From NCBI GenBank assembly GCA_934045905.1, contig OW203771.1:19290069-19354068 (forward strand): DNA of 64,000 nt, written 5' to 3'. The notes under the pieces are model-generated. The model did no database searches, was not told where the DNA came from, and was given only the letters and a program-made list of their open reading frames with translations. The position numbers and the translations under genes are program-made. This stretch comes from Leuctra nigra. Lineage: Eukaryota; Arthropoda; Insecta; Plecoptera; Leuctridae. Shown piece after piece: positions 9,717 to 46,825 of this stretch (positions are counted from its first letter, which is position 1; each line of letters starts with the position of its first letter).

Positions 9717-12534
9717 CTAATCGCCGTTATGATGATCCTCATGATCATGATCTCTTGAATGATCCCTATTGCGTCCTCTATCTCCACTACCTCCACTACC
9801 TCCATTAGATCCTTGGCTTCCTCCACGACCTCCACCATTGCCTTGACCATTTACAAACCCTCCGCTTGCATATCCTCCACCATTTCCGCCACCTCCACCA
9901 CTTCCACCACCTCCACCATTGCCTTGACCATTTACAAACCCTCCACTCGCATATCCTCCACCATTTCCACCACCTCCACCACCTCCACCATTGCCTTGAC
10001 CATTTACAAACCCTCCGCTTGCATATCCTCCACCATTTCCGCCACCTCCACCACTGCCACCTCCATTGCCAAATACTGGAGCATCATTTCCCATTACGTG
10101 TACGCCGGATTCACCGCCACCATTCCCACTTCCATATCCACTTCCATTTCCACTTCCATTTCCACTTCCATTTCCACCACCAAATCCGCTACCTTCACTT
10201 CCATTTCCACTTATAAATTCTGCACCTCCAAACCCACCCCCACCCCCACCCCCACCACCGCCGCCGCCGCCGCCGCTTCCAAATCCAGTGCCTCCACCAA
10301 ATCCATTTCCATTCCCACCTCCATTTCCAACTCCATTACCTCCACCTACAGCTCCTCCATTTCCACTTCCACCTCCACTTCCAACTCCATTACCTCCACC
10401 TACAGCTCCTCCATTTCCACTTCCACCTCCACTTCCAACTCCATTACCTCCACCTACAGCTCCTCCATTTCCATTCCCACCTCCACTTCCAACTCCATTA
10501 CCTCCACCTACAGCTCCTCCATTTCCACTTCCACCTCCACTTCCAACTCCATTACCTCCACCTACAGCTCCTCCATTTCCATTCACACCTCCACTTCCAA
10601 ATCCGACATTTCCAATGTTATTATTATCATTTCCACTCCTATACGGTCCATTTCCATGTCCTCTTCTTCCACCTCCAGAATTCCCCCAACCCCCACCACC
10701 TCCACTTCTGGATGTACCTCCTCCGTGTCCGTGCCCATTTCCATTTCCATTGCCATAACCATTTCCATTTCCATTTCCATTTCCATTTCCATTTCCATTT
10801 CCATAACCATTTCCATTTCCATTGCCATAACCATTTCCATTGCCATAACCATTTCCATTTCCATTTCCATAACCATTTCCATTTCCATTGCCATTGCCAT
10901 AACCATTTCCATTTCCATTTCCATAACCATTTCCATTTCCATTGCCATTGCCATAACCATTTCCATATCCATTTCCATTTCCATTGCCATTACCATATCC
11001 ATATCCATTTCCATTCACATTTGATCCTCCACCTCCTCCACCTCCTCCACCACCACCTCCACTCCCAACTCCTCCATTTCCGAAACTATTTCCATCTCCT
11101 GCTCCACTTCCACTCCCCCCACCCCCTCCACCGCCACCACGGCCATTAGCACATTTTCCACCAATTACTACATTTCCATTGATGTCAACATTTGAACTGG
11201 ACCCATTATATTCTGTCTCACCATCACCCATGTAGTCCTCATGGGGATGATTATTATTATGTTGCTCACTATAGGTGTCATTCTTAATACCTTGCTGTTG
11301 AGCATTTGGCATTGTATTAGGAGTTGAAGTGTAGGACGGATCATCAACAATCGGGTCCTCAGTATCTGTTATTGTTGTGTTTTCATTTGGAGAAATTCCC
11401 GTCGCTGTTGGCAGACTTAATCCATCCTTGACGGAAAAGGAGACTGAAAAATATGTAGATCGATAATTTATAATCGTGAGTTATGTTATCAACAATCTAG
11501 GTATAAGATGACAGTTTATTTTCGTCCATTGCAAATAGTGCATTGATTGATAGATACTTTTGTTTCAAAGTGTATATTGGTTGGGGATATTACATAATTG
11601 AGCAGAACGTTTTGAGAGAGATTCAAAGAATTAGAGCAATATACTAAAACCCCACAAAATATAATTCTATGGCAATGCATTTCTTCTCAAAGGAATATTA
11701 TGGAAAAATAAAGATTCATTAAATTAGGGTTTGTTCAACTACTGTTATAAATAAATTGTACACTTTTACCGTAATTTGTAATGTTTAAAATGTAAAAATT
11801 CCTTTTAGGATTCAAATATTTTTGAATTATTTTTGAATTAAGAATTATCGGGTTTGTGATACCGAAATAAAAATATCTCATAAAAAAGTCAAAGTAAATA
11901 CGTCTCATCTTTATAGTCCCCGAAACGCGCGTGCGTACAGTGACACCTTGGCTCGCTCTTGCCACACAGAGGGACCGGCTTGAACCGACTCAAATTTTTG
12001 CACCCACACGAATGTCATAACAACGGTAACATTAATTGTTGAAATCCTCTCATAGTTTGAATGGTGAAAATGAACAGTTTAACCGATTTACTTCAAATCA
12101 CTTATAGTCATTGAACCCTACATTTTATGACATTTTACAATTCTGCTAAATTTTCAAGTTAAATTAAATTTAAAAAATATCATATAATTAGTCGAAAATG
12201 AAAACATTCAAATCAATTAAAATTTTGCAGAGTGATCAAGATGCACCATCTCATATTTTCTTATTGCCATTTTAAGAGAATTAAATAGCATTTTGAATAG
12301 AAATTAGCGAAAAAAACAAAATGTAATTATCCCAGAAAGCAATGGTAAGTAGCAAAGAAAATCAGAAATAATGTAGGTAGTCGATCGTGTTCGGTTGGAG
12401 ATGTTACACTTGCTCGCTCATCAACGCGTTTCACTGAGCATTTCCTATTAGAAGATGAGAATAATAAAAATCAACAAAATCAAAATGTAACCATGAAATA
12501 GCTTACCTAATACAAGAACCACCAGGCCGATCAT
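9717..12534 (-). CDS. Secreted Gly/Asn-rich repeat protein 1 (two coding exons)
   Basis: Coding exon 1 is 12,507-12,534 (28 nt). The intron is 11,444-12,506 (gtaagc...tttttcag, phase 1) and exon 2 is 9,717-11,443. The spliced product is 584 residues. MIGLVVLVLVSFSVKD gives a signal peptide, cleaved probably near SLPTA. An acidic linker follows, then poly-Gly, many GNGNGYG units, five GGNGVGSGGG-type 18-residue repeats, three GGYASGGFVNGQGN repeats and a charged tail ending in Asp/His-rich HSRDHDHEDHHNGD, which might bind metal. The composition is that of extracellular structural or adhesive proteins; the actual role is unknown. The start is chosen because exon 1 joins in frame and follows a TATA box. 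Plus-strand Pro- and His-rich frames over it are complements of the repeat. Confidence 0.85.
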
Positions 12535-12575
12535 CGTTGAGCAGTAGACTGTAGCTTCTGAAGTTGTGTCTCTGC

Positions 12576-12582
12576 TTTTATA
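12576..12582 (-). promoter_or_regulatory. TATA box of Gly-rich gene 1
   Basis: Minus-strand TATAAAA about 42 nt upstream of the ATG, conserved in genes 2 and 3. Confidence 0.75.
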
Positions 12583-12688
12583 CGATTTCCCGTACTGTTA
12601 TTTTGTCTTATCTTACCGGGTCCTTCGAACATATGTGTCACTGTTATAGCTAATTACTTAAAACACGAGGCATTGGGTAGTAGTAGCA

Positions 12689-12869: not shown

Positions 12870-13856
12870 CTAGGAAAACGCTTATTATAACGCGTTGATA
12901 AGCGAGCCTTCGTACTGCATGCGATGTAATGTGTGCGTCAAATATGTCCAACAGGAATTCCGTACCAAACGCACAGAAACATATCCCTTGATCCACTCAA
13001 TCAACATAAAAGTATCTGTTTTCTATGAAACTTAAGAATAGCAATCCTTACACTTTTGTACATAAAGCAAATCAGATTCAATTTTGCAGTGGAGGACAAT
13101 CATTTCAAAACTTCATGACAGGTTATTTAAACTGTCAATAAGTGCATGTTCTTGACTGATTGGGCTGAAAATTTGTATAATAAGAGGCAATGTTGGTTTT
13201 AACGACAATGCAAAATATGAGTTGGATCATATTTATCGAAGACCATTTAATAGGTCATACGGTGGTGTGACTACATGCCATTTTAAATTGAGCATACAAC
13301 TGTCAGTAAAATGTATATTACTCTTTTATTACTCTTTTATTACTCTTTGTAATGAAGTTCATAACAGATTTTTACAGATTTGTCAAAAAAACACTTATAT
13401 GCACTTATAAACACTTATAAACACTTATAAACACTATTGTACTTTTTGCCTTAAAAAAAGAGATCACCACGGACCTCGAAACGTCGGCACAAATAAAGTT
13501 GTTTCATACACAATAATAACCCATTTCATTTCAATAACTTATAACACTTATATACCAATCACCATGCAAAATTTGGTGGTGATTGCTCAAACGATTCCAA
13601 TTTTATTGGCACACAGAGTTGCGTTTCTTTCATATTGCCAAGCTAAATCGAGTTTCTGATGAAATTAATCGATCGATTTTGCTAGAAATCATTAGCCTTC
13701 TGCACTGAATAGTGATTAATATTTGTGAAAAAAATTGTCCCGATCCGTTACTTTGTTTAAAATGTAATGCAAAAAACACAAATAAACACACACACACAAA
13801 AAAATAAAAAATTGAACCATAAGGTTCAAAACGAGACGCTCGTTCCGCTCGCTTAA
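12870..13856 (-). mobile_element. Helitron-like element (family H), old copy in unit 1
   Basis: Plus-strand CTAGGAAAACGC at the left and gctcgcttaa at the right mark a reversed family-H element. At about 13,390-13,540 it holds material absent from the unit 2 copy, including short tandem acactTATAA units and a segment with ctcgaaacgtcgg...aataaag. Unit 3 appears to keep the empty site (around 28,945-28,960). Confidence 0.55.
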
Positions 13857-14019
13857 TAATATATAATATAAAATAGGCGAAATTAAGAAACATTCTACTT
13901 TCCATTAACTCCATTAAAATGGTTCAACTGTTACTAGTCCGTTGACAATACCTCTGAATAGTTACCTCCAACTGCCATCTTATCCATTTAATATAAAAAA
14001 TTAAATTGTGAAAAACTAA

Positions 14020-15200
14020 AGTTATTCGTGGATAGAAATATTTAGGAATTAGGTTTGATGAAAAATTAAATTTGCTAGAACAAGTAAAAAGGGTTGCTAA
14101 GTAATCGATTTAAAATACTAACTATGTCATGAGTAATTTAAAGCATGTTGACAAATATGTAAAAAAAAAAAATCAAGCATTAAACACTCATAAGACTCAT
14201 ACTAGATTATGGGAGTGCAATTTGGGACCCATACAAAATAAATGAAATAACTCTTTTGGAGAAATCACAAAGAATGGCTATAAGGAGAGTGATAAATGAG
14301 AAGTGGGCAGTAAAGAGAAATAAACAGGGAGTGGTTGTGAAAGAGTGGGTGAGCCCGACAGAGTTGATGAAGGAATTAAAGTGGGAGAAGTTGGAGGTCA
14401 GGAGAAAGATAACGCGGTTATGTAACTTTTTCAGAATATGTGATGCGATCTGTGAAAAAGAACCTGTGGGTGAAGAATAGTGATTTCCAGCTTTTTGCTC
14501 TCTGGAAAGAGGAACACATTAGGAATAAATTATACAAAAAATTATAAATTCTGATAATAAATAAGGTTATATATTTTTAAATGTTATTATTCGAAAACTT
14601 ACAAAGCAGGAAAAATAAGTTTAAAGTAAAGCAACCAGTTTTTAATGTGTTTTTTTAGAGTATTTTAGTAGGTATTTGTATTCACAGAGATTGAAGAAAA
14701 CACCACTAGGTAGCAGATAAAGCCATATTCCGAAAATCGATAAAATAGCCATTTTAACACATAATTGAATTTTGCTGCAAACTAACTCTTTCACCCACAG
14801 GTCCCTCTTCACAGATTACATCACATATCACACACACACATATAAGCAAATTGGCGGGTGGAAATATTTTGGACAGTTTTTGAAATAAAAATAAAAGAAC
14901 CGAACAGATAAGCATGAAATTCAAATTATAGAATGGCCCATAAAAACAGATATTGGAAAAAATGCATTTTTACTTAGAACAATTAGGGAATGGATAATTT
15001 GGAAGGTGTGTTTGACTCTGTAGTTATTGAGGAATGTAGTGTTAGGGAATTCAGGGATAAGTTAATTAGTTACATAGTAGTAGAGCAATGTAGTAATTTA
15101 ATGTATAGAAGCAATGTTTAAATGTTTAAATTGTTGTAGTCTTAGTTTTGTTTATGATATTAATTAAATTCCTTGCCACCAGGGAAACCCATTTGTAAGA
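14020..15200 (+). pseudogene. Degenerate LINE 3' end (C-terminal RT region) in unit 1
   Basis: Broken plus-strand frames encode YLGIRFDEKLNLLEQVKRVAK (about 14,037), LILDYGSAIWDPYKINE followed by LLEKSQRMAIRRV (about 14,195-14,300), and FLLRTIREW (about 14,970). This is the conserved region after the RT domain in CR1/Jockey-like LINEs. It is broken by stops and frameshifts. The parallel copy in unit 2 is at 21,205 onward. Confidence 0.7.
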
Positions 15201-15424
15201 TGAAAATAAAATGAAAATGAAATCTGTCCGAATAAAACTTAGACCCTATCGCGACTACCATTCTTACACAGACGTAGCATTAGCTGCCTAAAATATAGAT
15301 ATTTGAATACAGAGGGGTGATTTGCAAGACTGGTTTTCACGAACTTTTATCAGAACATAACGAGGCGGCTGTATAACCTCTGTAAAATATATTTGTTCAA
15401 AATGGAAATAAACTGAAACTGTAA

Positions 15425-16671: not shown

Positions 16672-19080
16672 TCATGATCCTCTTGAATGATCCATATTGC
16701 GCCGTCTATCTCCACTACCTCCACTACCTCCATTAGATCCTTGGCTTCCTCCACGACCTCCACTACCTCCACTACCTCCATTAGATCCTTGGCTTCCTCC
16801 ACGACCTCCACTACCTCCACTACCTCCACTACCTCCATTAGATCCTTGGCTTCCTCCACGACCTCCACTACCTCCATTAGATCCTTGGCTTCCTCCACGA
16901 CCTCCACTACCTCCACTACCTCCACTACCTCCATTAGATCCTTGGCTTCCTCCACGACCTCCACCATCACCTCCACCACCATTGCCTTGTCCATTTACAG
17001 ACCCTCCACTTGCATGTCCTCCGCCACCTCCACCACCTCCACCACCACCATTGCCTTGTCCATTTACAGACCCTCCACTTGCATATCCTCCACCACCTCC
17101 ACCACCTCCGCCACCTCCACTACCACCATTGGCTTGACCACTTATAAACCCTCCACTTGCATATACTCCGCCACCTCCACCACCTCCACCACCACAATTG
17201 CCTTGTCCATTTACAGACCCTCCACTTGCATGTCCTCCGCCACCTCCGCCACCTCCACCACCTCCACCACCACCATTGCCTTGTCCATTTACAGACCCTC
17301 CACTTGCATGTCCTCCACTTGCATGTCCTCCACCACCTCCACCTCCACCACCTCCACCACCACCATTGGCTTGTACATTTACAAACCCTCCACTTGCATT
17401 ACCTCCACCCCTTCCACCCCCTCCACCATTGCCGTTTCCATTTCCATACCCATTTCTATTTCCTTTTCCATTTCCATTTCCATTTCCATTTCCATTTCCA
17501 TAACCATTTCCATTTCCCTTGCCATAACCATTTCCATTTCCATTTCCATATCCATTTCCATTTCCATATCCATTTCCATTCACATTTGATCCTCCACCTC
17601 CTCCACCTCCTCCACTACCACCTCCACTCCCAACTCCTCCATTTCCGAAACTATTTCCATCTCCTGCTCCACTTCCACTCCCCCCACCCCCTCCACCGCC
17701 ACCACGGCCATTAGCACATTTTCCACCAATTACTACATTTCCATTGATGTCAACATTTGAACTGGACCCATTATATTCTGTCTCACCATCACCCATGTAG
17801 TCCTCATGGGGATGATTATTATTATGTTGCTCACTATAGGTGTCATTCTTAATACCTTGCTGTTGAGCATTTGGCATTGTATTAGGAGTTGAAGTGTAGG
17901 ACGGATCATCAACAATCGGGTCCTCAGTATCTGTTATTGTTGTGTTTTCATTTGGAGAAATTCCCGTCGCTGTTGGCAGACTAAATCCATCCTTGACGGA
18001 AAAGGAGACTGAAAAATATAGAAGATCGTTAATTTATAATCGTGAGTTATGATATCAACAATCTAAGTATAAGATGACAGTTTATTTTCGTCCATTGCAA
18101 ATAGTGCATTGATTGGTAGATACTTTTCTTTCAAAGTGTGTATTGGTTGATCATAATTGAGCAGAATGTTTTGAGAGAGATTCAAAGAATTAGAGCAATA
18201 TACTAGAACCCCACAAAATATAATTCTGTGGCAATGCATTTCTTCTCAAAGGAATATTATGGAAAAATAAAGATTCATTAAATAAGGGTTTGTTCAACTA
18301 CCATTATAAATAAATTGTACACTTTTACCGTAATTTGTAATGTTTAAAATGTAAAAATTCCTTTTAGGAGGATTCAAATATTTTTGAAATATTTTTGAAT
18401 TAAGAATTATCGGATTTGTGATACCGAAATAAAAAATATCTCATTAAAAAGTCAAGGTAAATACGTCTGGCTCGCTCTTGCCACTTGAACTGCATGATAA
18501 ACCTTTTAACAAATCGATCTCAAATTTTGCACACACACGAATGTCATACCAACGGTTACATTCATTATAATTTTCAAATTCTCTGATAGTTTAAATGATG
18601 AAAATTAACCGTTTAGCCGATTTACCTACTTGAAATTACTAATGGTCATTGAGCCAATTTTTTATGACATTTTACAATTCAGCTAAAGTCTGAAATTAAA
18701 TTATATTTAAAAAATATAAAAAATATCTTTTGATTAGTCGAAAATGAAAGTCGATCAATTACTATTTTGCAGAGTGATAAAGACCACCACACCATCTCCT
18801 ATTTTCTTATTGCCATTTTAAGAGTATTAAATAGCTCTTTGAAAATCAATTATCGAAAATTACCAAATGTAATTATCCTAGAAAGCAATGGAAAGTTGCA
18901 AATAAAATCAGAAATAATGAAGGTAGTCGATCGTGTTCGGTTGGAGATGTTACACTTGCTCGCTTATTAAAAGGTTTCACTGAGCATTTCCTATTAGAAG
19001 ATGAGAATAATAAAAATCACCAAAATCAAAATATTACCATGAAATAGCTTACCTAATACAAGAACCACCAGGCCGATCAT
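16672..19080 (-). CDS. Secreted Gly-rich repeat protein 2 (two coding exons)
   Basis: Paralogue of gene 1. Coding exon 1 is 19,053-19,080 (28 nt), the phase-1 intron is 18,009-19,052 and exon 2 is 16,672-18,008; the product is 454 residues. The signal peptide and acidic N-terminus are the same as in gene 1. The middle has GNGNGYGKGN units and then long poly-Gly tracts separated by HASGGSVNGQGN modules. The end is RGGSQGSNGGSGGSG repeats. The reading frame ends at NMDHSRGS, because one extra G relative to gene 1 shifts the frame. The Asp/His tail (DHEHHRHDD) survives only in another frame. Function is unknown; an extracellular structural or glue-like role is inferred from composition. Confidence 0.85.
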
Positions 19081-19412: not shown

Positions 19413-21058
19413 CTAGGAAAACGCTTATTATAACGCGTTGATAAGCGAGCCTTCGTACTGCATGCGATGTAATGTGTGCGTCAAATATGTCCAACAGAAA
19501 TTCCGTACCAAACACACAGAAACATATCCTTTGATCCACTCAATCAACATAAAAGTATCTGTTTTCTATGAAACTTAAGAATAGCAATCTATACACTTTG
19601 GTACATGAAGCAAATCAGATTCAATTTTGCAGTGGAGAACAATCAATTCAATTCTTCATGACAGTTATAAAAACTGTCAATAAGTGCATGTTCTTGACTG
19701 ATTGGGCTGAAAATTTGTAAAATAAGAGACAATGTTGGTCTTAACGACAATGCAAAATATGAGTTGGATCATATTTATCGAAGACCATTTAATAGGTCAA
19801 ACGGTGGTGTGACTACATGCCATTTTAAATTGAGCATACAACTGTCAGTAAAATGTATACTAGGAAAACGCTCAGTGTAACGCGTTGATGAGCGAGCACG
19901 GGTACGTGCAAATTCTCGAACCGGAAATGCGTACACACTGCAAAGAAAACATATACATCCATATTTAATTGAAATATGATCACTCCATCAACATAAAAGT
20001 ATGCTTTTCATTGAAACTTGAAAATAGCATCTAAGCACCCTGGTACATAATATCAATTCAGATTCAATTCAAGTGGCGCTGGAAAACATTCATTTCGATA
20101 CTTCATATCTGACAGCTATTAAAAATGTCAATCAGTTCATACGTTCTTAACTTTTTGGAATGAAAATTTGTAAAATAAGAGGCAATGTTGGTCCTGACGA
20201 CCATGCAAAATATGAGTTTAATCAGATATAGACCATAAAAAGGGTGGTGTGGCTACAAGCCATTATAAATTAAGCTTTACAAATGTCATTAAAATGTATA
20301 TTAGGTACTCTTAAAGTTCATGATAGATTTTACAGATTTGTCAAAAAATAGGTACTTAAAATGCTGGTACCAATGACAATGCAAATTTTGGTGATGATCG
20401 GTCAAACGATTGCAATTATAATGACACACAGAGTTTCTTTCATCCCCATTGCCAAGCACGCATCAAGTACACATCAAGTTTCCGATGTAACTAATAGATC
20501 AATCATGCTGAAAATCATTTTGACTATAACGAGAATAGTAATATAAGTTTTGTGAAAAAATTGGCCTGATCCATTACTTCGTTTGGCAGGAGACGCCAAA
20601 TGCACAAATAAACACACACAAAAAAAACAGAGATTCGAGCCATAAGTTTCAAGTGGAGACGCTCGCTACGCTCGCTCAATTACTCTTGAAGTTCATTACA
20701 GATTTTTACAGATTTTTCAAAAAAACACTTATATGCACTTATAACACTTATATACCAATCACCATGCAAAATTTGGTGGTGATTGGTCAAACGATTCCAA
20801 TTTTATTGGCACACAGGGTTGCGTTTCTTTCATATTGCCAAGCTTAATCAAGTTTCTGATGAAATTAATCGATCGATTTTGCTGGAAATCATTAGCCTTC
20901 TGCACTGAACAGTGATGAATCTTTTGTGAAAAAAATTGGCCCGATCCGTTACTTTGTTTAAAATGTAATGCAAAAAACACAAATAAACACACACACACAA
21001 AAAAATAAAAAAATTGAACCATAATTTTTAAAAAGAGACGCTCGTTCCGCTCGCTTAA
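19413..21058 (-). mobile_element. Helitron-like element, unit 2 counterpart, interrupted
   Basis: Same insertion as 12,870-13,856 in unit 1, so it predates the duplication of units 1 and 2. It is split by a younger family-H copy at 19,860-20,679. Confidence 0.55.
19860..20679 (-). mobile_element. Helitron-like element (family H), young nested copy
   Basis: 820 bp, from CTAGGAAAACGCTCAG on the left to ctacgctcgctcaa on the right (reversed orientation). Unit 1 keeps the unoccupied site aaatgtata/ttactc. The join is exact, between A and T, with no target-site duplication. The hairpin near the CTAG end is intact. It has no coding capacity. Confidence 0.65.
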
Positions 21059-21204
21059 TAATATATAATATAAAATAGGCGAAATTAAGAAACATTCTAC
21101 TTTCCATTAACTCCATTAAAATGGTTCGACTGTTACTAGTCCATTGACAATACCTCTGAATAGTTACCTCCAACTGCCATCTTATCCATTTAATATATTG
21201 AAAA

Positions 21205-22292
21205 ATTAAAGTTATTCATGGATAGAAATATTTAGGAATTAGGTTTGATGAAAAATTAAATTTGCAAGAACAAGTAAAAAGGGTTACTAAGTAATCGATT
21301 TAAAATACTAACTATGTCATGAGTAATTTAAAGCATGTTGACAAATACGTAAAAAAAATCAAGCATTTAAACACTCATAAGACTCATACTAGATTATGGG
21401 AGTGCAATTTGGGACCCATACAAAATAAATGAAATAACTCTTTTGGAGAAAGCACAAAGAATGGCTATAAGGAGAGTGATGAATGAAACCAGGAAGTGGG
21501 CAGTAAAGAGAAATAAACAGGGAGTTGTTTTGAAAGAGGGGGTGAGCCCGACAGAGTTGATGAAGGAATTAAAGTGGGAGAAGTTGGAGGTCAGGAGAAA
21601 GATAACGCGGTTATGTAACTTTTTCAGAATATGTGATGCGATCTGTGAAAAGGGACCTGTGGGTGAAGGATAGTGATTTCCAGCTTTTTGCTCTTTAAAA
21701 AGAGGAACACATTAGGAATAAATTATTAAAAAAATTATAAATTCTGATAATAAATAAAGTTATATATTTTTAAATTTTATTATTCGAAAACTTACAAAGC
21801 AGGAAAAATAAGTTTAAAGTAAAGCGACCAGTTTTTAATGTTTTTTTTTTTAGAGTATTATAGTAGGTATTTGTATTCACAGAGATTGAAGAAAACACCA
21901 CTAGGTAGCAGATAAAGCCATATTCCGAAAATCGATAAAATAGCCATTTTAACACATAATTGAATTTTGCTGCAAACTAACTCTTTCACCCACAGGTCCC
22001 TTTTCACAGATTACATCACATATCATCACACACATATAAGCAAATTGGCGGGTGGAAATATTTTGGACAGTTTTTGAAATTAAAATAAAAGAACCGAACA
22101 GATAAGCATGAAAATCAAATTATAGAATGGCCCATAGAAACAGATATTGGAAAAAATGCATTTTTACTTAGAACAATTAGAGAATGGATAATTTGGAAGG
22201 TGTGTTTGACTCTGTAGTTATTGAGGAATGTAGTGTTAGGGAATTCAGGGATAAGTTAATTAGTTACATAGAAGTAGAGCAATGTAGTAATT
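21205..22292 (+). pseudogene. Degenerate LINE 3' end in unit 2, left part
   Basis: Counterpart of 14,020-15,200, with the same LILDYGSAIWDPYKINE and AQRMAIRRVMNE blocks. It is interrupted at 22,292 by another LINE; the remainder resumes at 24,187 and runs to about 24,290. Confidence 0.7.
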
Positions 22293-26323: not shown

Positions 26324-28624
26324 TCATGATCCTCTTGAATGATCCATATTGCGCCGTCTATCTCCACTACCTCCACTACCTCCATTAGTTCCTTGGCTTC
26401 CTCCACGACCTCCACTACCTCCACTACCTCCACTACCTCCATTAGATCCTTGGCTTCCTCCACGACCTCCACTACCTCCATTAGATCCTTGGCTTCCTCC
26501 ACGACCTCCACTACCTCCACTACCTCCACTACCTCCATTAGATCCTTGGCTTCCTCCACGACCTCCACCATCACCTCCACCACCATTGCCTTGTCCATTT
26601 ACAGACCCTCCACTTGCATGTACTCCGCCACCTCCACCACCTCCACCACCACCATTGCCTTGTCCATTTACAGACCCTCCACTTGCATGTCCTCCGCCAC
26701 CTCCGCCACCTCCACCACCTCCACCACCACCATTGCCTTGTCCATTTACAGACCCTCCACTTGCATGTCCTCCACTTGCATGTCCTCCACCACCTCCGCC
26801 ACCGCCACCTCCACCACCACCATTGCCTTGTCCATTTACAGACCCTCCACTTGCATATCCTCCGCCACCTCCACCACCTCCACCACCTCCACCACCTCCA
26901 CCACCACCATTGGCTTGTACATTTACAAACCCTCCACTTGCATTACCTCCACCCCTTCCACCCCCTCCACCATTGCCGTTTCCATTTCCATACCCATTTC
27001 CATTTCCTTTTCCATTTCCATTTCCATTTCCATTTCCATTTCCATAACCATTTCCATTTCCCTTGCCATAACCATTTCCATTTCCATTTCCATATCCATT
27101 TCCATTTCCATATCCATTTCCATTCACATTTGATCCTCCACCTCCTCCACCACCACCTCCACTCCCAACTCCTCCATTTCCGAAACTATTTCCACCTCCT
27201 GCTCCACTTCCACTCCCCCCACCCCCTCCACCGCCACCACGGCCATTAGCACATTTTCCACCAATTACTACATTTCCATTGATGTCAACATTTGAACTGG
27301 ACCCATTATATTCTGTCTCACCATCACCCATGTAGTCCTCATGGGGATGATCATTATTATGTTGCTCACTATAGGTGTCATTCTTAATACCTTGCTGTTG
27401 AGCATTTGGCATTGTATTAGGAGTTGAAGTGTAGGACGGATCATCAACAATCGGGTCCTCAGTATCTGTTATTGTTGTGTTTTCATTTGGAGAAATTCCC
27501 GTCGCTGTTGGCAGACTAAATCCATCCTTGACGGAAAAGGAAACTGAAAAATACGAAGATCGTTAATTTATAGTGAGTTATGTTATCAACAATCTAGGTA
27601 TAAGATGACAGTTTATTTTCGTCCATTGCAAATAGTGCATTGATTGATAGATACTTTTGTTTCAAAGTGTATATTGGTTGGGGATATTACATAATTGAGC
27701 AGAACGTTTTGAGAGAGATTCAAAGAATTAGAGCAATATACTAAAACCCCACAAAATATAATTTGATGGCAATGCATTTCTTCTCAAAGGAATATTATGG
27801 AAAAATAAAGATTAATTAAATAAGGGTTTGTTGAACTACTGTTATAAATAAATTTTACACTTTTACCGTAATTTGTAATGTTTAAAATGTAAAAATTCCT
27901 TTTAGGATTCAAATATTTTTGAATTATTTTTGAATTAAGAATTATCGGGTTTGTGATACCGAAATAAAAATATCTCATAAAAAAGTCAAAGTAAATACGT
28001 CTCATCTTTATAGTCCCCGAAACGCGCGTGCGTACAGTGACACCTTGGCTCGCTCTTGCCACACAGAGGGACCGGCTAGAACCGACTCAAATTTTTGCAC
28101 CCACACGAATGTCATATCAACGGTAACATTAATTGTTGAAATCCTCTCATAGTTTGAATGGTGAAAATGAACAGTTTAACCGATTTACTTCAAATCACTT
28201 ATAGTCATTGGACCCTACATTTTATAACATTTTACAATTCTGCTAAATTTTCAAGTTAAATTAAATTTAAAAAATATCATATAATTAGTCGAAAATGAAA
28301 ACATTTAAATCAATTAAAATTTTGCAGAGTGATCAAGATGAACCATCTCATATTTTCTGATTTCTATTTTAAGAGTATTAAATAGCATTTTGAATAGAAA
28401 TTAGCGAAAAAAACAAAATGTAATTATCCCAGAAAGCAATGGAAAGTTGCAAAGAAAATCAGAAATAATGTAGGTCTATCGTGTTCGGTTGGAGATGTTA
28501 TGCTCGCTCATCAACGCGTTTCACTGAGCATTTCCTATTAGAAGATGAGAATAATAAAAATCAACAAAATCAAAATGTAACCATGAAATAGCTTACCTAA
28601 TACAAGAACCACCAGGCCGATCAT
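26324..28624 (-). CDS. Secreted Gly-rich repeat protein 3 (two coding exons)
   Basis: Third paralogue. Coding exon 1 is 28,597-28,624 (28 nt), the phase-1 intron is 27,544-28,596 and exon 2 is 26,324-27,543; the product is 415 residues. The signal peptide is identical to those of genes 1 and 2. The repeat region (GYGKGN units, poly-Gly plus HASGGSVNGQGN modules, RGGSQGSNGGSGG end) closely follows gene 2, with a different number of units. It carries the same frameshifted end as gene 2 (NMDHSRGS). Its intron, exon 1 and core promoter are instead gene-1-like, so it is a mosaic. Function is unknown, as for its paralogues. Confidence 0.85.
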
Positions 28625-33378: not shown

Positions 33379-36300
33379 TCAACCTTGAAATCCTCCATAT
33401 CCCCCCTGCATTCCAACATATCCACCCTGCATTCCAACAGCCGGACTTCCAACATATCCACTCGGTCTTCCAGCAACCGGACTTCCAACATATCCACTCT
33501 GCATTCCAACAACCGGATTTCCAACATATCCACTCTGCATTCCAACAACCGGATTTCCAACATATCCACTCTGCATTCCAACAACCGGATTTCCAACATA
33601 TCCACTCTGCATTCCAACAACCGGACTTCCAACATATCCACCCTGCATTCCAATAATCGGACTTCCAACATATCCACCCTGCATTCCAACAACCGGACCT
33701 CCAACATATCCACTTGGTCTTCCAACAACCGGATTTCCAACATATCCACTTTGCATTCCAACAACCGGACCTCCAACATAAACACTCGGTCTTGCAACAA
33801 CCGGACTTACAGCAACCGGACTACCAACATACCCTGAATAACCACCGTAACCGCCTCCGTAGACAGGTGAAGTAGGCGCGTTCCAGCCTGAACCCACGTA
33901 TCCTCCAGTGGGACCTGGCCGGTTGAATCCTGGATTATATATGCCTCCAATAGGTGCAATGACAGGATAACCGGGTGACATCCCAACATTGCTCCCGTAA
34001 TACCCGTGTGTGCTACCAACATTGCCCACACCACCCTGAGAAGCCCCTTGATTAACATTCGTCGATCCAACCTGCCCTTTGTAACTGTTCGCATAAGCGA
34101 CGAGAAAGCTACCTGAATTAGCAATTATAGTCCCGCCAGTGGAGCCTCCACTACTTCCACTTCCGGTAGGGGCTGCAGCTCCTCCACTACTGCTACTTGA
34201 AGAATTTCCGACTGTGCCTCCACTGCTTCCACTTCCTGCAGTTGCTGCAGATCCACCATTACTTCCACTTCCGGTAGTTGCTGCAGCTCCTACACTACTG
34301 CTATTTGAAGAACTACCGGCGGTGCCTCCACTACTTCCACTTCCGGTAGTTGCTGCAGATCCTACACTACTGCTATTTGAAGAACTACCGGCGGTGCCTC
34401 CACTACTTCCACTTCTGGTAGTTGCTGCAGATCCTCCACTACTGCTATTTGAAGAACTACCGGCTGTACTTCCACTGCTTCCACTTCCGGTAGTTGCTGC
34501 AGATCCTCCACTACCGGTACTCGAATGACTACCCATTGTGCCTCCTGAACCACTAACACCAGAAGAACTAAAAGATCCTCCACTACCGGTACTTGAATGA
34601 CTGCCATGTGTGCCTCCTGAACCACTAACACCAGAAGAACTAAAAGATCCTCCACTACCGGTACTTGAATGACTGCCATGTGTGCCTCCTGAACCACTAG
34701 CACCAGAAGAACTAAAAGATCCTCCACTACCGGTACTTGAATGACTGCCATGTGTGCCTCCTGAACCACTAACACCTGTAGAACTAGAAGAGCCTCCAGT
34801 ACTGTTACTTGAAGAACTACCGGCTGTGCCTCCACTACTTCCACTTCCGGTAGTTGATGTAGACCCTCCAGTACTGTTACTCGAAGAACTACCGGCTGTA
34901 CCTCCACCACTTCCACTTCCGGTAGTTGATGCAGATCCTACACTACTGCTATTTGATGAACTCCCGGCTGTGCCTCCACTACTTCCACTTCCGGTGGTTG
35001 CTGCAGACCCTCCACTACTTCCACTTCCGGTAGTTGCTACAGATCCTACACTACTGCTACTTGAAGAACTTCCGGCAGTGCCTCCACTACTTCCACTTCC
35101 TGCCGGTGCCACAAATCCTCCACTAATGCTACTTGAAGAACTACCCACAGAACCTATTTGATTCGGAATTGGATAACCAGGCAAAGTATACACACTTCCT
35201 TGGTAGCTACCTTGATATGCATTTGTATTACTAGGCGAACTATACATACTACCCTGGTAGCTTCCTTGGTATGCATTTGTGTTACTAGGCGAACTATACA
35301 TACTTGCTTGATTGGCATAAGATAATCTAGGCGAATTATACAAACTACCATGGTAGACTCCTTGATTGCCATATGTAAAACTAGGCGAGATATACATATT
35401 ACTAGGAGCGACTTGTGGCGTGGCATATATCGGACCAGGGGGATTGTACACAGTACTCTGAACGGTTCTTGGTACGGCATTTGTAAAACCTGGGGAACTG
35501 TACACATTGTTCGGAACGACTTGTGGCGTGGCATATATCGGACCAGGGGGATTGTACACAGTACTCTGAACGGTTCTTGGTACGGCATTTGTAAAACCTG
35601 GGGAACTGTACACATTGTTCGGAACGACTTGTGGCGTGGCATATATCGGACCAGGGGAATTGTACACAGTACTCTGAACGGTTCTTGGTATGGCATTTGT
35701 AAAACCTGGGGAACTGTACACATTATTCGGAACGACTTGTGGCATGGCATATATAGGACCAGGGGAATTGTACACAGTACTCTGAACGGGTCTTGGTATG
35801 GCATTTGTAAGACCACCCATGTTATACATACTACCTTGATAGCCTCCTTGCATGCCATTTGTAAGACCACCCATGTTATACATACTACCTTGATAGCCTC
35901 CTTGAATGCCATTTGTAAAACCACCTTGTTGATAGGGAATACCAAATCCGAAAGCACGTTTTTGTCGTGACAATGGATGAGGTTTTACAGGTGTACTAGC
36001 TGCAAGCTTCCTTGGCTTCTGTTTGTCTTCAGGTTTGGTTTCCGGCTTTGGAGAGTTTGCTTCAGGCTTATCTGGTTTGATGAAATCCCATGATGGGTTG
36101 CTTGTGACGTCATCCAAAGGATTTAGAACTGATTGCGGAGAAAATTCATCTTCTTGGAGATTTGGAAATGGTTCTTTACCGTTGACATTTTCGGTGAGAG
36201 TCCCAGCTGAAAGTATTGGAGCTAAAAATGAAAGAGTTACTAACAAATTTGAGTAAGTTTGTTTAATTTGAACCAAATTTTTAGAAAAATACAATAGTAT

Positions 36301-38589
36301 TTATCAGGGATGACGAATAAACAACAATTTTGAGTACTTTCAATAATTTGGAGAAAATAATCAATGGGTAGGACCCAGGTATTTGGTAGGACCGTAGGGA
36401 TGATTAATTTATTCAAGTACCTATGTCACCAAAGACGTTTGAGTGATAATAGACTTGTAGAAGATTAGCCGAAGATGCGATAAGAGAGAATGTAAAACAA
36501 TGATAGTCACCAAGTTGTTAAAACAGCCCCCCCCCCCCCCATCTGTGGGCGCCCATGTCATTAATTAAAGGTTTCCTATGCCTAGATGTAGGAAACCTGC
36601 AAGCAATGAAATTAAAATCTTTTTTCTTATTGTTGAGCATTAATCTTGCAACGGATATGATCCGTACATGCATTGAGTTTAATTTAGGTTTCAGTTTTGC
36701 ATTTTTAGAAGGTATTGTTGCCTATCTTTATTATACAGGGTTGGCGGTTGCTTAATATAATAATGCATGATTTTGGGTTGGGATTGGATTTTGGGATTCG
36801 ATGAAAACATCGACCTAAAGAGTCAATACTAAAATATAGGAACTGATCGTTTAAATATTTAAATAATTATGCAAGGTTTTGTGAATGTAATTTATGTTGA
36901 AATAATTTTAACGATGTAAATTCGATTAGGTAATTTTGCCAGTTAATGTTTGATGTTTTACAAAAACAAAAATCACAGGATCTCGTTCAAAAACTGCACC
37001 TGGGACCACTCACATGTAGTGTGTGTACAAAAAAATTTGAAAAACCATTTTTTATGATTTAATTTAAAAAAAAAATTAAACAAACTACTCTTATATAGTG
37101 ATTTGCTGGAGTAAGATTAGGACATACCCCGTAACACAAGTGCCCCACTACCAGAAAAGTACACAATAATATAATATACAAATATAAGAAGAGTAGGTAC
37201 TGGTATTGCTTGCTTAAAAATTTGCATGGTATTACGGCCGACAAAAATAAATTGATTTTCTTAATTTTCAGTCAAATCGTACACATGCAATCATCATTGC
37301 AAGAAGTTGTACTTGGCCAAACTAAAAGCGGTAGGTATTCGAAAGAAACGGATTGACTGAATAAGATGTGTGGCTATTCTAAGTCGTTACCTAACTCTAG
37401 TAGATGAGCTCTTATTTCATTACAAGGCTGGATTGTAAGTCTAAAGCTGGCTTTCCATGCTCCGTCATCTTCCGTCAACGTCCGTCACCATCCGACGAAA
37501 ACGACCACGTGACCCGTCTCGACCAATCAGAGCCATCCCCAAAAATCTCGGACGGCGAGGGATTGGTCGAGACGGGTCACGTGGTCGTTTTCGTCGGACG
37601 GTGACGGACATTGACGGAAGATGACGGAGCATTGGAAAGCCAGCATAACCCGCAGCCAATCCGTTTCGTTCAAATATCGTGTTTAGTTAGGCAAAAAATA
37701 TCTGTGGTTGATATATTGGAAACAACCAGTCTTGGGGAGGAACTAGTTACCGGGAACTTGTTTCTTTTTGGGGATCTTTTAGGGGAACTTAGTTCCTTTA
37801 TTTTTAATAGAATTTAGAAACTAAAAAGTTCCTTTTGAACGGACTTTGAAACTTATTTTACGCTATTTTTTAAGTTCCTTTAGAATAGAAATATAGTTTC
37901 TTATGACATTATAGCACAGAATTTATAACGAATAATGATCCATTTTTTGTGTCTTCCTAAATTTACCTGATTTCTGAAAATATACTGCTTGAACGCTTTG
38001 CTCACTCAAAAAATCCGGTTTGTTTTTGGTGGGCATTGTAACTTAAAGGAACTTAGTTCCTTACTGGTAACTTTCCAGTTCCTTTATTTGAAAGGAATTA
38101 GGAACTGGAACTAGTTCCTTTTTTATCAAACGAACTGGAACTTGAATTAGTTCATTTTTTTAGGAACTTACCCAACACTGGAAACAACAATAACGATTTC
38201 ATGAAAACAGGGGTCTATTCTCGAAACAGTCATCACGTCATATCTATAGTTAAGTTATGATATCAATGAGGTTCGTCCTATCTCTCACCATGTTAATATT
38301 ATGACTTTTCGTCATAATAACTTATGACGTGATAACTGTTTCGAGAATAGGGGCCCAGATCATTTCCAGACATACCGACACAAAAAGTATTTTTTGTTTG
38401 AACATTTTTAATGCTTTACATTTTAGTTTCTTATGCCACACAGTCATAACCGGCTGGTTTGGGGAAATACTTGCATTCGTACAGTTTTAAAGATTACATA
38501 GAAAAATAACGGTGATAATTTTTATTGATAATCTTTAATTTTGTAATTCTTTGCAACTTACCTAGAACTGCTAGAATAAGAAGCTTCAT
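33379..38589 (-). CDS. Secreted pro-protein with RQKR site and Tyr/Gly/Ser repeats (two coding exons)
   Basis: Coding exon 1 is 38,562-38,589 (28 nt), the phase-1 intron is 36,222-38,561 (gtaagt...ttttag) and exon 2 is 33,379-36,221; the product is 956 residues. MKLLILAVLAPILSAG is the signal peptide. A charged propeptide follows with LNPLDDVTSNPSWDFIKP and ends in the furin-type site RQKR (95-98). The mature part has four blocks: TNGMQGGYQGSMYN; TVQSTVYNSPGPIYATPQ with VVPNNVYSSPGFTNA; a long Gly/Ser region (GSGSSGGTAGSSSS); and at least ten YVGNPVVGMQSG 12-residue repeats. This is a silk- or glue-like composition. The propeptide pairs it with the gene at 41,125. The intron holds a hairpin and two MITEs. 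Confidence 0.85.
37446..37644. repeat. 200-bp near-perfect hairpin (84-bp arms)
   Basis: Arms 37,446-37,528 and 37,561-37,644 are reverse complements with about three mismatches and one indel, around a 32-nt spacer. The arms begin gctggctttcca and include gaaaacgaccacgtgacc. It lies in the intron of the RQKR gene, so it would be transcribed. It could be a MITE, or the source of a long hairpin RNA. No clear TSD. Confidence 0.85.
37727..38180. mobile_element. hAT-type MITE with 8-bp TSD
   Basis: A 454-bp non-coding element. Its ends are CAGTCTTGGGGA and, reversed, CAGTGTTGGGTA. It is flanked by the identical 8-mer gaaacaac (37,719-37,726 and 38,181-38,188). CAGTGTTGGG-type ends with 8-bp duplications are characteristic of hAT elements. 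The inside is rich in ggaactagttcc-like repeats. Confidence 0.85.
38210..38356. mobile_element. Small MITE with about 30-bp inverted ends
   Basis: The ends read ggggtctattctcgaaacag and, reversed, gggcccctattctcgaaac, continuing through atcacgtcat. 147 bp, non-coding. The superfamily and TSD are unclear. Confidence 0.7.
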
Positions 38590-41124: not shown

Positions 41125-43882
41125 CTATCCTCCGAATTGACCTCCGTTGAAATTTGAAAAGAGCCCATTTAAACCTGACCCCCCAAACATACCATTTAGA
41201 TTCGACATGCCAAATCCCTGACTACCTCCACCATTTCCATTAAAAGCGTAGCCTGAAGGGTTCCCAACATTGAGCGCAGTATTTCCTTGGGTACCAGCTA
41301 CGGGACCCCCTTGATTGTTATTAACAGTACCACCTACAAGGCCCCCTTGATTTCCATTGGTAGGAGTTCCCAGATTACTTAAACCACCCAGAAAGCCTCC
41401 CTGATTACCATTTGTAAATCCTCCAAAATTACCCAAACTTCCCAGGATGCCTCCTGGTTTGCTATTTGCAGAGCTACCTGAGTTACTTAAACCTCCCTGA
41501 TTACCATTTGTAAATCCTCCAAAATTACCCAAACTTCCCAGGATGCCTCCTGGTTTGCTATTTGCAGAGCTACCTGAGTTACTTAAACCTCCCTGATTAC
41601 CATTTGGAAATCCTCCAAAATTACCCAAACTTCCCAGGATGCCTCCTGGTTTGCTATTTGCAGAGTTACCTGAGTTACTTAAACCTCCCTGATTACCATT
41701 TGGAAATCCTCCAAAATACCCCAAACTTCCCAGGATGCCTCCTGGTTTGCTATTTGCAGAGCTACCAGAGTTACTTAAACCTCCCTGATTACCATTTGGA
41801 AATCCTCCAAAATTACCCAAACTTCCCAGGATGCCTCCTGGTTTGCTATTTGCAGAGCTACCAGAGTTACTTAAACCTCCCTGATTACCATTTGGAAATC
41901 CTCCAAAATTACCCAAACTTCCCAGGATGCCTCCTGGTTTGCTATTTGCAGAGCTACCTGAGTTACTTAAACCTCCCTGATTACCATTTGGAAATCCTCC
42001 AAAATTACCCAAACTTCCCAGGATGCCTCCTGGTTTGCTATTTGCAGAGCTACCTGAGTTACTTAAACCTCCCTGATTACTATTTGGAAATCCGCCAAAA
42101 TTACCCAAACTTCCCAGGATGCCTCCTGGTTTGCTATTTGCAGAGTTACCTGAGTTACTTAAAGCTCCCAGAAAACCTCCCTGATTACCATTTCCAAAAC
42201 TTCCGAAATTACCCAAACTTCCCAGAAAACCTCCGGAATTTCCATTTGTAAAACCAGCTAAATTTCCTGAATTGCCTTGTTGGTTAGGTATAATATTTCC
42301 AACAACACGCTTTTGTCGTACTAATGGAAGTGTTTTTACAGAATTAGCTTCAAAGTTCCATGGTTTCTGTTTCTCTACTTCCGGTTTTGATTCCATCTTG
42401 GGAGAGTTAGGCGCAGGTTCTTCTGGATTGATGAAATCCCATGATGGGTTGTTAGTTACGTCTTCCAAAGGATTTTGAGGATTTTCAATTGCCTTACCGA
42501 TTACATTCTCCAAGAGTATCCCAGCTGAAATCAATAGAAGTGGGAAGTTGAATACTCTACTAAAAAAGTAATTGCTTATGAAAGTAATCTTTCGCACAAT
42601 AATGCACAATAGGACAATAATGCAAAAATGCAATATTATTAATTAGGAAACACAATTTGGAATAAATTCTTAAAACTAATGCTTTCCTTTTTTGCATGAA
42701 AAGTTGAGGTTCAATTACAAAATACATCGTTATGCATCGTTAGCATAATTATGGTACGTGTATCCACTACCTACACAGAAATGAAAAAAGAAAACCGAAA
42801 CGTGGAAAAGGGATACACGGATGAAAGAAACGAAAAATTAAACCAAAAAACCATAGAGTTTAATTATATTGAAACTATAATAATAATACTGTCATTATTG
42901 TTATTATTGCGAAAAAGAATTGAATGGAATATAATTTAAATTGAAATCAGCATTGTGAAATGATGGTATTCTTACTTATGGAAACGCATCAGACGTTCAT
43001 TTAAAGAAAGTTGCAAATTTGCAGAGCAGAATTGTAAGGAGCATAACACTGGAGAGTGAGATTCTTCATGAAGGCATTAACACTCATTTTCAACAAGCCC
43101 AGATATTACCTTTTGAATATTTAAGACGTTATAGATTTTTATTACAATATTATTTTGATAATGATAATAAAGTGTGCTTAAAAAGAAATCGAGAGACAAG
43201 GGACGCTATTCAAAATTTAAATCAGTTTCAGGTGCCACTTTTTAATAATAAACATGGTAAGAGAACGCTAGCTTATGAAACTCCAATTATATTTAACAAC
43301 ATTCCGTTTAATATGAGACAATATACAAAGTTTAGTGAAGTAAAAGTAAATATTAAAAAACATTTTCTATCCTTGCTGCAATTATAGTTTGAAAGTTAAA
43401 AATATAAAAAAATGTATCGATCTCTCTCATATCTCTCTCGATCGCTGCGATCTCTCTCATTGTTGTGCTCTTGCACAACTTGCTCTTGTTGTTCAGTTCA
43501 ATTCAATTTATTACATCTTGCAAAGAATATTATAGGTACTACCTTCTCTCTCTGTGCATTTTATTTGTATTTATATTTATATTTATTTATATGTAACTAA
43601 AGTGTATATCAATGTGTTAATTATATATGTGTTATTTGCCACATTCAAGTCTCAATGGGGCTTTGTGGCTGCGACCAATTTTGTAATTATTTGTATTTGT
43701 ATGTTATTTTTGTAAAATAAAAAAAAATAAAAAAAAATAAAAATTTATTTGAAATTCCTTGAAATTATGGAACATACTAAAATAATTTCATCCATTTTGT
43801 ATTGCTGCTGACCAATTAATACCACAAAATTAATAATGGGTATTTGTGACTTACCTAGAATTGCGATAATAAGGAGCTTCAT
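41125..43882 (-). CDS. Secreted pro-protein with RQKR site and 32-residue Gly/Asn/Ser repeats (two coding exons)
   Basis: Coding exon 1 is 43,855-43,882 (28 nt), the phase-1 intron is 42,525-43,854 (gtaagt...tttcag) and exon 2 is 41,125-42,524; the product is 475 residues. The signal peptide is MKLLIIAILAGILLEN. The propeptide (NPLEDVTNNPSWDFINPEEP, then NSPKMESKPEVEKQKP) is clearly homologous to that of the 33,379 gene and also ends in RQKR (79-82). The mature part consists of about eight exact 32-residue repeats (96 bp) such as GGLSNSGSSANSKPGG followed by ILGSLGNFGGFPNGNQ, then a Gly/Asn/Phe-rich end. A LINE fragment sits in the intron. Likely a cleaved, secreted structural protein; tissue unknown. 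Confidence 0.85.
42955..43745 (+). pseudogene. 5'-truncated LINE fragment in an intron
   Basis: The frame starting GILTYGNASDVHLKKVANLQ continues for about 140 codons through NKHGKRTLAYETPIIFNNIP to a stop at 43,387. This is the C-terminus after the RT domain, matching NKYGKRQLAVNIPNILNLIP in the LINE at 48,455. A 3' UTR and an A-rich tail (43,717-43,745) follow. It is antisense to the host gene. Confidence 0.8.
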
Positions 43883-44022: not shown

Positions 44023-44030
44023 TGAGTCAT
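44023..44030. promoter_or_regulatory. TGAGTCAT motif upstream of the 41,125 gene
   Basis: Same bZIP-type octamer as in the three Gly-rich gene promoters, about 140 nt upstream of the ATG. Confidence 0.35.
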
Positions 44031-44744: not shown

Positions 44745-44815
44745 TTATATTTAACGTCGCACTTTTCTGCAACTAGTATAATGGCGTCTGACACATAGTT
44801 ATGATTGGGTTTATA
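44745..44815 (-). repeat. SINE fragment (family S2, 3' body)
   Basis: taacgtcgcacttttctgca and the following ctaatggcg-like stretch match the 3' part of the SINE at 50,795-51,081. No head or tail remains. Confidence 0.65.
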
Positions 44816-45328
44816 CTAAGTACGATTTGTTTCAGAATAATTCAAAAGTATTATTTCAAAACATACACTGTAGATGGAGAAAAACTGCATTTAATTAAAA
44901 TTCATCCACCTGTTGCCTGGGTGAATACTTAAAATCATCCCATTTGCGATGCTAGAAAAAAAGCGCCGTTCCAATGTTCAATTTATTTATTACTGAAGCA
45001 AGATATCGGTACCTATACAGTGGTGCAGTGGTAACATAGTGCTTTGTTGGTATTAAATCAAAAGATAATACGTCTAGAAGATTTGTATTGTCTGTTTGTA
45101 TCTTTGTTAATACACATTTTTCTTTCTATTTAATAACAAAAAACAATGTTAAATGAAAGATAATACAAAAGATATTACGTGCGAGGACTCTTTGTGAATC
45201 GAACACTCTGTACGATAATGAAATGAATATAACAAGATAACGAATACCCTTCAATATCAACAATCTGATCAGTGTGCCTTACTTTATGCTATTATCTAAA
45301 TTGTGTTTTTGACCTTCACATGGAAATC
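44816..45328. other. Intergenic sequence, no gene seen
   Basis: AT-rich. The last part is the 3' flank of the small secreted-protein gene. Confidence 0.5.
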
Positions 45329-46825
45329 CTAGAAGCCTCCAAATGCCCCAACTTGATTAATCAAACCTCCAAAGAAATTATCAATCCCTGCTTGAGGAAC
45401 TTCTTGATTTACAACAGGTTCTATCTTGTTTTCCAAACCCTCAAGAAATGCATTAAAACCTGACACCACCATTTGCTCTAAATCGCCTAGGAAGTTATCA
45501 GAATTCCCTTGATTTTCATCAACTTTTTGATCTCCATTATTAGTATAAGCATACCCTCCATATTTGAATCCATTACTCTCTCCACTATACTTAATGCCGT
45601 GAGAATCGCCATTATTAATGACTTGGAATCCTGTAGGATCAACGTCGGTAGTGACATCTAGGAAAGAAGTTTGAAGAGTTGGCTCGAGTGAAGATGGTGT
45701 GTCTGTGGATGGAAGCGACGTAACACCATCTGCAGTTGGTCTACAGGCAACATCCTTCGCGAGAATGGAGACTGAAATCACATAGGTTATAAAGATGGCT
45801 GACACAATGATATTTGACGTGAGGGGCAAAGGTTGGCTAGCAAAAGCATATTAAAAAAATACGCTTTGACATTTATGTTTGTAATTTGTTGTTGAAAGCT
45901 AAAGGGTGGCTAAAGTTTGATTAGCCAACTGAGTTTATTATTTTTTCATGCCAGAAAATAATATCTTTCTGATTCTAATAAAAATCGTCAATGCAATAAA
46001 TAAATTGAACTCTCCCCATTTGTCAAATCAGATGAGAATATCATGAGATTTCACAACACATTTTGTACTTCTAGGAAAACGCTCTGTGTAAAGTATTGGT
46101 AAGTGAGCTTTCGTGATGCTTGCGAATTGACTCATATGACTTTCTCTCATTATGACATCAGTGTGTGTGCATAATTTCAGATCGATTGGTTGAACTTTGT
46201 GGCCTGGGCAGTGCGGTCAAGAGCACAGACATAAAAAAAACACAGAGAAAGAGCCATAACAGTCCTGTTGTAACCAGGGACTGGAACCGAGAAGAACCGC
46301 TATTTTTTTATAGGAATCGGAACCAGAATCTGACCCATATTATTTTTTTAAGTGGAACCGGAACCGGAGCCCTTATTAATATTAATAATTGTTTGGGTTC
46401 CATAACGGAAGGGTTCTTTAAATAATTAATTGAATTGAATTTTTACTTCATTGCCATTCAAATTTGAAATTATTACCATATACAGTTTTTCAAATAAATG
46501 ATTACCGAGGAAAATTAATGTTAGACATTTCAGAGCATGTAAATTCCTAAATTCGATTTTAAAAAAAATATTGTATTATTGTCAGAATTTGATGAAACCG
46601 ATGAGAACCCTTATGGAACCGAAATGAAACTGGATCCGGAACCTTTATTTTTTCCAGGAACCGGAACCGGAATCGATATTCATTTGGGTTCCAGTCCCTG
46701 GTTGTAACGAATCATTTAAATGAGAGCTACTCTCATTTAAAAATTTCAATTACAGAATGTAGCTTCCTGAATATAAATAAAATTAGTTTTTACTCACCAA
46801 AAACGACAGCAATAGAGAACTTCAT
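45329..46825 (-). CDS. Small secreted acidic protein, member of the 28-nt-exon family (two coding exons)
   Basis: Coding exon 1 is 46,798-46,825 (28 nt), the phase-1 intron is 45,772-46,797 (gtgagt...tttcag) and exon 2 is 45,329-45,771; the product is 156 residues. The signal peptide is MKFSIAVVFVSILAKDVACR. The rest is acidic and Asn/Gly-rich: TSFLDVTTDVDPTGFQ resembles the DVT-containing propeptide motif of the RQKR genes, and it is followed by KYGGYAYTNNG, a LEGLENKIEPVVNQE stretch and the C-terminus NQVGAFGGF. It has no RQKR site and no long repeats, so it may be a short, ancestral-like or partner member. Its intron contains an hAT MITE and a truncated Helitron-like copy. Function is unknown. 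Confidence 0.75.
46071..46266 (-). mobile_element. Truncated Helitron-like element
   Basis: The CTAGGAAAACGCTCTGTG end of family H is followed by the subfamily body seen at 57,052-57,971 (cctgggcagtgc, cacagagaaagagccata). The other end is absent beyond the hAT MITE insertion. Confidence 0.55.
46275..46700. mobile_element. hAT-type MITE with perfect 8-bp TSD
   Basis: 426 bp. Both ends read CAGGGACTGGAACC (14/14), and the element is flanked by gttgtaac at 46,267-46,274 and 46,701-46,708. The inside is rich in ggaaccggaacc motifs with no open frame. It is inserted in the intron of the 156-residue secreted-protein gene. Confidence 0.9.

Follow-up and report, generated by a model that had tools for sequence, protein, structure and literature searches.

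We analysed a 64,000-nt stretch of the genome of the plecopteran insect Leuctra nigra (GCA_934045905.1, contig OW203771.1, positions 19,290,069 to 19,354,068 of the forward strand), referred to below as the window. Six genes on its minus strand, g1 to g6, have the same structure: a 28-nt first coding exon, a phase-1 intron, and a single second exon with all remaining codons. The cluster is probably a tandem array of genes for secreted structural proteins, which would make up a glue, a silk or a coating from one gland, all descended from one ancestral two-exon gene. The first-pass annotation had read it as a conserved secretion module with a replaced material part, as in silk, glue or sheath genes. 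There is good support for a family of secreted, mostly repetitive proteins that keep a stable front while the body changes fast, and the natural comparison is with silk, glue or sheath proteins. Exon 1, however, did not hold up as the conserved module; the likeness of g1 and g3 to g6 sits in residues 11 to 28, which exon 2 encodes.

In the mechanism that we favor, secretion would be directed by a signal peptide some 19 residues long and split at codon 10; the 28-nt exon would supply its beginning, and the opening nine or ten codons of exon 2 the rest. A non-repetitive prosegment would come next, and in g4 and g5 it would be removed at a furin-type RQKR site. The remaining Gly/Asn, Tyr/Ser/Gly or Gly/Asn/Ser body would assemble or stick as building material. 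Copies would arise by unequal crossing-over inside genes and be reshuffled by gene conversion between neighbors. The repeats of exon 2 would grow and turn over, with the front kept and the body changing.

Gene structure and reading frame

The six start codons, the strand, the 28-nt exon and the phase-1 join proposed at first pass were all borne out. A donor lies 28 nt after each ATG (GTRAG overall; GTAAG in five genes and GTGAG in g6). All six models, in which exon 1 joins the CAG acceptor of a large open reading frame (ORF) in phase 1, read without an internal stop. The introns, given earlier as 1.0 to 2.3 kb, measured 1,063, 1,044, 1,053, 2,355, 1,330 and 1,026 nt in g1 to g6, and the proteins are 584, 454, 415, 951, 475 and 156 aa long. 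Splicing and transcription of the six genes are predicted from these features.

Exon 1 of g1 (12507..12534, minus strand, as for all exons below) encodes MIGLVVLVL and the first base of codon 10. Exon 2 (9717..11443), with the acceptor TATTTTTCAG, encodes a Gly/Asn repeat protein. The same exon-1 sequence recurs in g2 (19053..19080) and g3 (28597..28624), with exon 2 at 16672..18008 and 26324..27543, respectively. In g4, exon 1 (38562..38589) encodes MKLLILAVL, and exon 2 (33379..36206) encodes a prosegment ending in RQKR at residues 90 to 93 and Tyr/Ser/Gly repeats. An alternative in-frame acceptor is possible 15 nt upstream of the one chosen for g4, which was picked for giving residues of the same kind as in g5. 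Exon 1 of g5 (43855..43882) encodes MKLLIIAIL. Its exon 2 (41125..42524) encodes a prosegment with RQKR at residues 79 to 82, followed by 8.1 copies of a 32-aa (96-nt) repeat. In g6, exon 1 (46798..46825) encodes MKFSIAVVF before the GTGAG donor, and exon 2 (45329..45771) is acidic. A further hydrophobic phase-1 candidate exon, 31 nt long (MKSLLLFPVL, donor GTAAG), lies at 38202 on the minus strand within the g4 intron; it is a possible remnant or alternative first exon.

We searched both strands for the defining unit, an ATG opening a stop-free 28-nt exon followed by GTRAG, with a mean hydropathy of at least 1.9 over residues 2 to 9. Six units were found on the minus strand and none on the plus strand, and 200 first-order Markov randomizations in 2-kb blocks gave a mean of 0.095 over both strands and a maximum of 2; the six are non-independent, g1 to g3 being copies with an identical exon 1. 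The cut-off was set after seeing the six genes, just under the value of g6 (1.95), and lowering it to 1.0 left the counts unchanged at six and none. When the exon length was varied from 19 to 60 nt, matches besides those at 28 nt occurred only at 20 nt (one per strand) and 41 nt (two, plus strand).

The repeats carry the same frame. Tandem Repeats Finder (TRF) gave 61 rows with a score of at least 100 in the window, and 58 of these lie within exon-2 segments or the ORF of g7, a large reading frame at the window edge described below. The period is divisible by 3 in all 58, which overlap and so are not independent events, and the three rows outside have periods of 4, 125 and 36. The divisible periods thus support the reading frame. 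Over 93 aligned N-terminal codons of g4 and g5, the nonsynonymous divergence (dN, 0.240) is lower than the synonymous one (dS, 0.618), which backs coding more weakly than the repeat periods do. Differences at codon positions 1, 2 and 3 numbered 21, 17 and 33 in this frame, the only one compared.

Mature parts and fronts of the six proteins

The mature parts, described at first pass as unrelated, fall into three groups: g1 to g3, g4 with g5, and g6. The first three genes are tandem copies: of the opening 330 nt of exon 2, 327 to 329 are identical. The genes g4 and g5 are paralogs too, 50% identical along roughly 156 aa (E 3.6e-39). These two have the RQKR-ending prosegment in common and begin their repeats with similar units of roughly 18 aa (GGFTNGxQGGYxGS-like). 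Beyond these, g5 amplified its 96-nt unit, and g4 has units of 108, 72 and 36 nt.

The fronts were compared across groups with 20,000 permutations in each of 28 tests, uncorrected; g2 was omitted as identical to g3 there. Over residues 11 to 28, g1 and g3 each match g6 at 7 of 18 positions, a level that none of the 20,000 permutations reached in either case. Weaker likeness was found over residues 11 to 19 between g5 and g6 (p 0.0033) and between g4 and g6 (p 0.0063). The exon-1 residues were significantly alike in g4 and g5 (p 0.0005), and between groups they were not (g4 and g6, 0.054; g5 and g6, 0.081; g1 with g4, g5 or g6 and g3 with g6, 0.38 to 0.46). The homologous front therefore appears to extend across the intron, and the lasting module is the whole signal peptide with the start of the prosegment, not exon 1 alone. 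The exon-1-encoded stretches are predicted to belong to signal peptides by hydropathy, the sole basis of the call, in six of six genes. By our own reading, each of the four distinct fronts would obey the -3,-1 rule if cut after residue 19.

Several results weigh against a single family with a structural role. Searches of a very large protein set with whole g6, g5 residues 1 to 100 and g2 residues 1 to 112 returned no relative, which is weak evidence because the coverage of insects had no positive control. The candidates sharing words with these queries (13, 38 and 80, respectively) all failed the E thresholds of 10, 1 and 1. As no relatives were found, the proposed function draws on composition and architecture. 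The g6 product lacks repeats (no TRF row with a score of at least 100). The front of g1 was not significantly similar to that of g4 or g5 in the permutation tests, so that one ancestor for all groups depends on the weaker link through g6. BLAST with the first 100 residues against the six-sequence set gave E 0.005 for g1 and g6 and E 0.53 for g5 and g6. The excess of third-position differences between g4 and g5 was borderline (chi-square p 0.053).

Domain and structure searches gave little further. The Pfam scans covered the N-terminal parts of g1, g4 and g5, the whole of g6, and g7; no family came up, with a threshold of E 0.1 for the first four and E 0.01 for g7. A search of the PDB with g6 alone gave one match, which was not meaningful (E 0.72). 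Residues 11 to 156 of g6, folded without an alignment, reached a mean predicted local distance difference test (pLDDT) value of 50.6, and the model tentatively suggests a C-terminal pair of helices. Structural secretions evolve so fast that sequence searches often miss relatives. A short phase-1 signal exon ahead of a repeat exon could serve as a search key independent of sequence similarity; fly glue genes also match it, and moth fibroin does so approximately.

Comparison with known secreted materials

The architecture of these genes is already known; the cluster is real, and its members resemble silk or glue genes and look like orphans. One close likeness is to the Drosophila glue genes. In Sgs1, Sgs3x and Sgs7/8 the first coding exon is constantly 28 bp, and in the Sgs3 copies it varies from 19 to 31 bp (PMC10835880). 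In the Sgs1-3-7-8 genes a phase-1 intron falls at residue 10; it is followed in Sgs1 by a single long exon of repeats, and duplication and gene conversion are described for Sgs3b, Sgs7 and Sgs8 (PMC10835880). The glue-gene intron is common to five of the eight D. melanogaster glue genes (PMC6352337). All six genes here are like the glue genes (Sgs1, Sgs3, Sgs3x, Sgs7, Sgs8 and Eig71Ee) in the 28-nt first exon and the phase-1 intron at residue 10 within the signal peptide (PMC10835880). The repeat-bearing second exon of several Sgs genes, the partial clustering and the gene conversion are further points of likeness (PMC10835880, PMC6352337). Vertebrate and arthropod genes show an excess of phase-1 introns close to the signal-peptide cleavage site, at about residue 20 (PMC1626468); the introns here are phase 1 in six of six genes, but at residue 10, ahead of that peak.

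The differences from the glue genes are also distinct. The C-terminal IRXC[L/V]C motif of the Sgs proteins is absent from all six proteins, so by this feature they fall outside the Sgs family; Cys residues number 1, 2, 1, 0, 0 and 1 in g1 to g6, none of them within the last 49 residues. The introns of 1.0 to 2.4 kb contrast with those of Sgs1 (50 to 71 bp). The bodies are rich in Gly/Asn/Ser instead of the Pro/Thr/Ser described for Sgs proteins, although g7 is Thr/Ser-rich. The RQKR site of g4 and g5 also sets them apart from the Drosophila glue genes.

Lepidopteran fibroin heavy chains have conserved N- and C-terminal domains. In the Yponomeuta heavy chain, exon 1 encodes 10 signal-peptide residues, and exon 2 is very large, Gly-rich and repetitive (PMC9684489). 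Five of the six genes here resemble this lepidopteran type in their very short exon 1 and long repetitive exon 2, g6 having no repeat row; the comparison is of architecture alone. Unlike the single fibroin protein of 5,763 aa (PMC9684489), the locus here encodes a cluster of proteins of 156 to 951 aa. The clustered ampullate silk (MaSp) genes of the spider Argiope are similar by description in their duplication, intergenic gene conversion and repeat homogenization (PMC9779670). The MaSp2 genes described there differ in having repeated introns within the gene (PMC9779670).

A different material would be an egg shell, an ootheca or a cuticle, whose two-exon secreted Gly/Tyr-rich genes would be expressed in follicle cells, the colleterial gland or the epidermis. 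Egg-membrane proteins lose prosegments at dibasic sites, and silkmoth chorion proteins have a central domain of A/B type. Silkmoth chorion genes lie in clusters; exon 1 is minor, at about 50 nt, exon 2 is major, at 300 to 500 nt, and gene conversion is presumed for them (PMC4639761). The genes here are like them in being clustered two-exon genes for secreted proteins with a minor exon 1 and inferred gene conversion, but their exon 1 is 28 nt in six of six cases instead of about 50 nt (PMC4639761). The chorion excerpt mentions no long arrays of the kind seen here (PMC4639761). Moreover, Cys is nearly absent (zero to two per protein), in contrast to the high-cysteine chorion proteins, and the Pfam scans of the N-terminal parts of g1, g4 and g5, of whole g6 and of g7 showed no chitin-binding or chorion domain. 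We consider an egg-shell or cuticle role somewhat unlikely.

Mosaic similarity of the copies and neighboring features

The three tandem copies g1 to g3 look like mosaics of one another. In their three-way alignment, each informative site has one odd copy. Over the intron, its last 43 columns excepted, g1 and g3 are 98.1% identical, and g2 and g3 are 89.0% identical. The order is reversed in the body of exon 2, where g2 and g3 reach 97.4% and g1 and g3 75.2%, as well as in the 3' flank, at 98.6% and 82.2%, respectively. A single switch of g3 from g1-like to g2-like fits 405 of 433 sites, with 101 to 13 on the left and 15 to 304 on the right, and none of 2,000 permutations of site order matched this fit. 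The best switch point lies at 27563..27583 (minus strand), with the intron side g1-like and the body and 3' flank g2-like. This is 20 to 40 nt ahead of exon 2 of g3, whose first base is 27543. Variable sites number just three in the opening 330 nt of exon 2, so the real switch could be at any point as far down as 27094.

The alignment also argues against a simple history. The switch test omitted 24 sites at which g3 is odd and 10 at which all three copies differ. In the intron, 69 of the 93 g2-odd sites sit in one 450-column block, within which g2 is just 81.6 to 81.8% identical to the other copies, and this divergent block may be a single local event. Outside the block, the intron is 98.8% identical between g1 and g3, 95.5% between g1 and g2, and 94.5% between g2 and g3. 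The switch fits 336 of 358 sites when the block is removed and 126 of 140 when the repeat body is removed as well, again with none of 2,000 permutations matching in either case. Still farther upstream, identity between g1 and g2 is 91.7%, and g3 is unrelated to them (44.5 and 47.3%). Since g1 and g3 have the closer intron in common but g3 is unrelated upstream, more than one event is needed. Gene conversion following crossing-over would account for that closer intron, and the recombination events behind the mosaic are ones that we infer from its pattern.

The spacers bear on the same history. The g1-g2 spacer (13537-15374 and 15407 onward) matches the g2-g3 spacer (20737-22292, 24184-24459 and 25054 onward), which would fit the trace expected of unequal crossing-over inside genes. 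A long interspersed nuclear element (LINE) interrupts the g2-g3 spacer between 22292 and 24184. As the g1-g2 spacer lacks it, the element was most simply inserted after the duplication. Its reverse transcriptase ORF lies at 22278-24062 on the plus strand (RVT_1, E 1.9e-36).

The starts of exon 2 in g1, g2 and g3 (11113-11443, 17678-18008 and 27213-27543, minus strand) are at most 3 nt apart, with dS of 0 to 0.011 over 130 codons. With introns that differ by up to 11%, they appear more homogenized than amino-acid constraint alone would make them. These copies offer a concrete case of how the fronts and bodies of such genes may recombine. A bolder reading would place the locus outside the fly and moth families known so far, as a glue or silk system where recombination at the border of intron and exon 2 repeatedly couples one front to different bodies, with g3 or g2 as an example caught in the act. 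The 28-nt phase-1 front would then be an ancient arthropod feature that glue and fibroin genes inherited from the same source. We regard this combination as unlikely.

Exon shuffling would explain the locus by the joining of one signal-peptide exon to unrelated repeat exons through a phase-1 intron. The phase is suitable, as all six introns would allow any exon 1 to join any exon 2 in frame, and the best switch point of g3 falls just ahead of exon 2. However, the scarcity of variable sites at the start of exon 2 means that the switch may fall inside the exon, and the bodies of g1 to g3 are paralogous, not foreign. The exon-2 residues beside the intron are alike between g1 or g3 and g6 and between g4 and g5, which indicates that the two exons moved together. 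The likeness of g1 and g3 to g6 is therefore better explained by common descent, with replacement within exon 2, and shuffling seems quite unlikely. Hardly credible is chance, that is, low-complexity ORFs beside unrelated hydrophobic 28-nt stretches with no genes at all: simple repeats do hold several frames open, on the plus strand too (421 aa opposite g1), and the g4/g5 third-position excess is just borderline, but six units stand against 0.095 expected with none on the plus strand, every one of the 58 TRF rows inside exons has a period that is a multiple of 3, and the non-repetitive prosegment starts are 99% conserved in g1 to g3 while the introns differ by up to 11%.

The ORF of g7 (59541..63998, minus strand) encodes at least 1,485 aa and leaves the window at its edge. 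It has mucin-like Thr/Ser/Pro repeats (27 aa, 10.4 copies) and then Gly/Asn/Arg repeats (26 aa, 8.5 copies). That g7 is a seventh gene of the locus, with its first exon beyond the window, is a guess; a mucin-like protein beside Gly-rich ones would fit a glue or a silk coating.

Other features of the window include core histone genes at 455-7209, with H3 on the plus strand and H2B, H2A and H4 on the minus strand, and histone 3' stem-loops at 956, 3151 and 6723. These histones and stem-loops mark the DNA as animal, and the H2B sequence suggests an insect. A second LINE occupies 48765-53216 on the minus strand and has an ORF1 of PHD and Baculo_FP type, with endonuclease and reverse transcriptase parts. 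Two inverted tRNA-Ala (ggc) calls, at 29043-29118 (minus) and 29438-29512 (plus), are 96% alike over 183 columns and are possibly tRNA-derived short interspersed nuclear elements.

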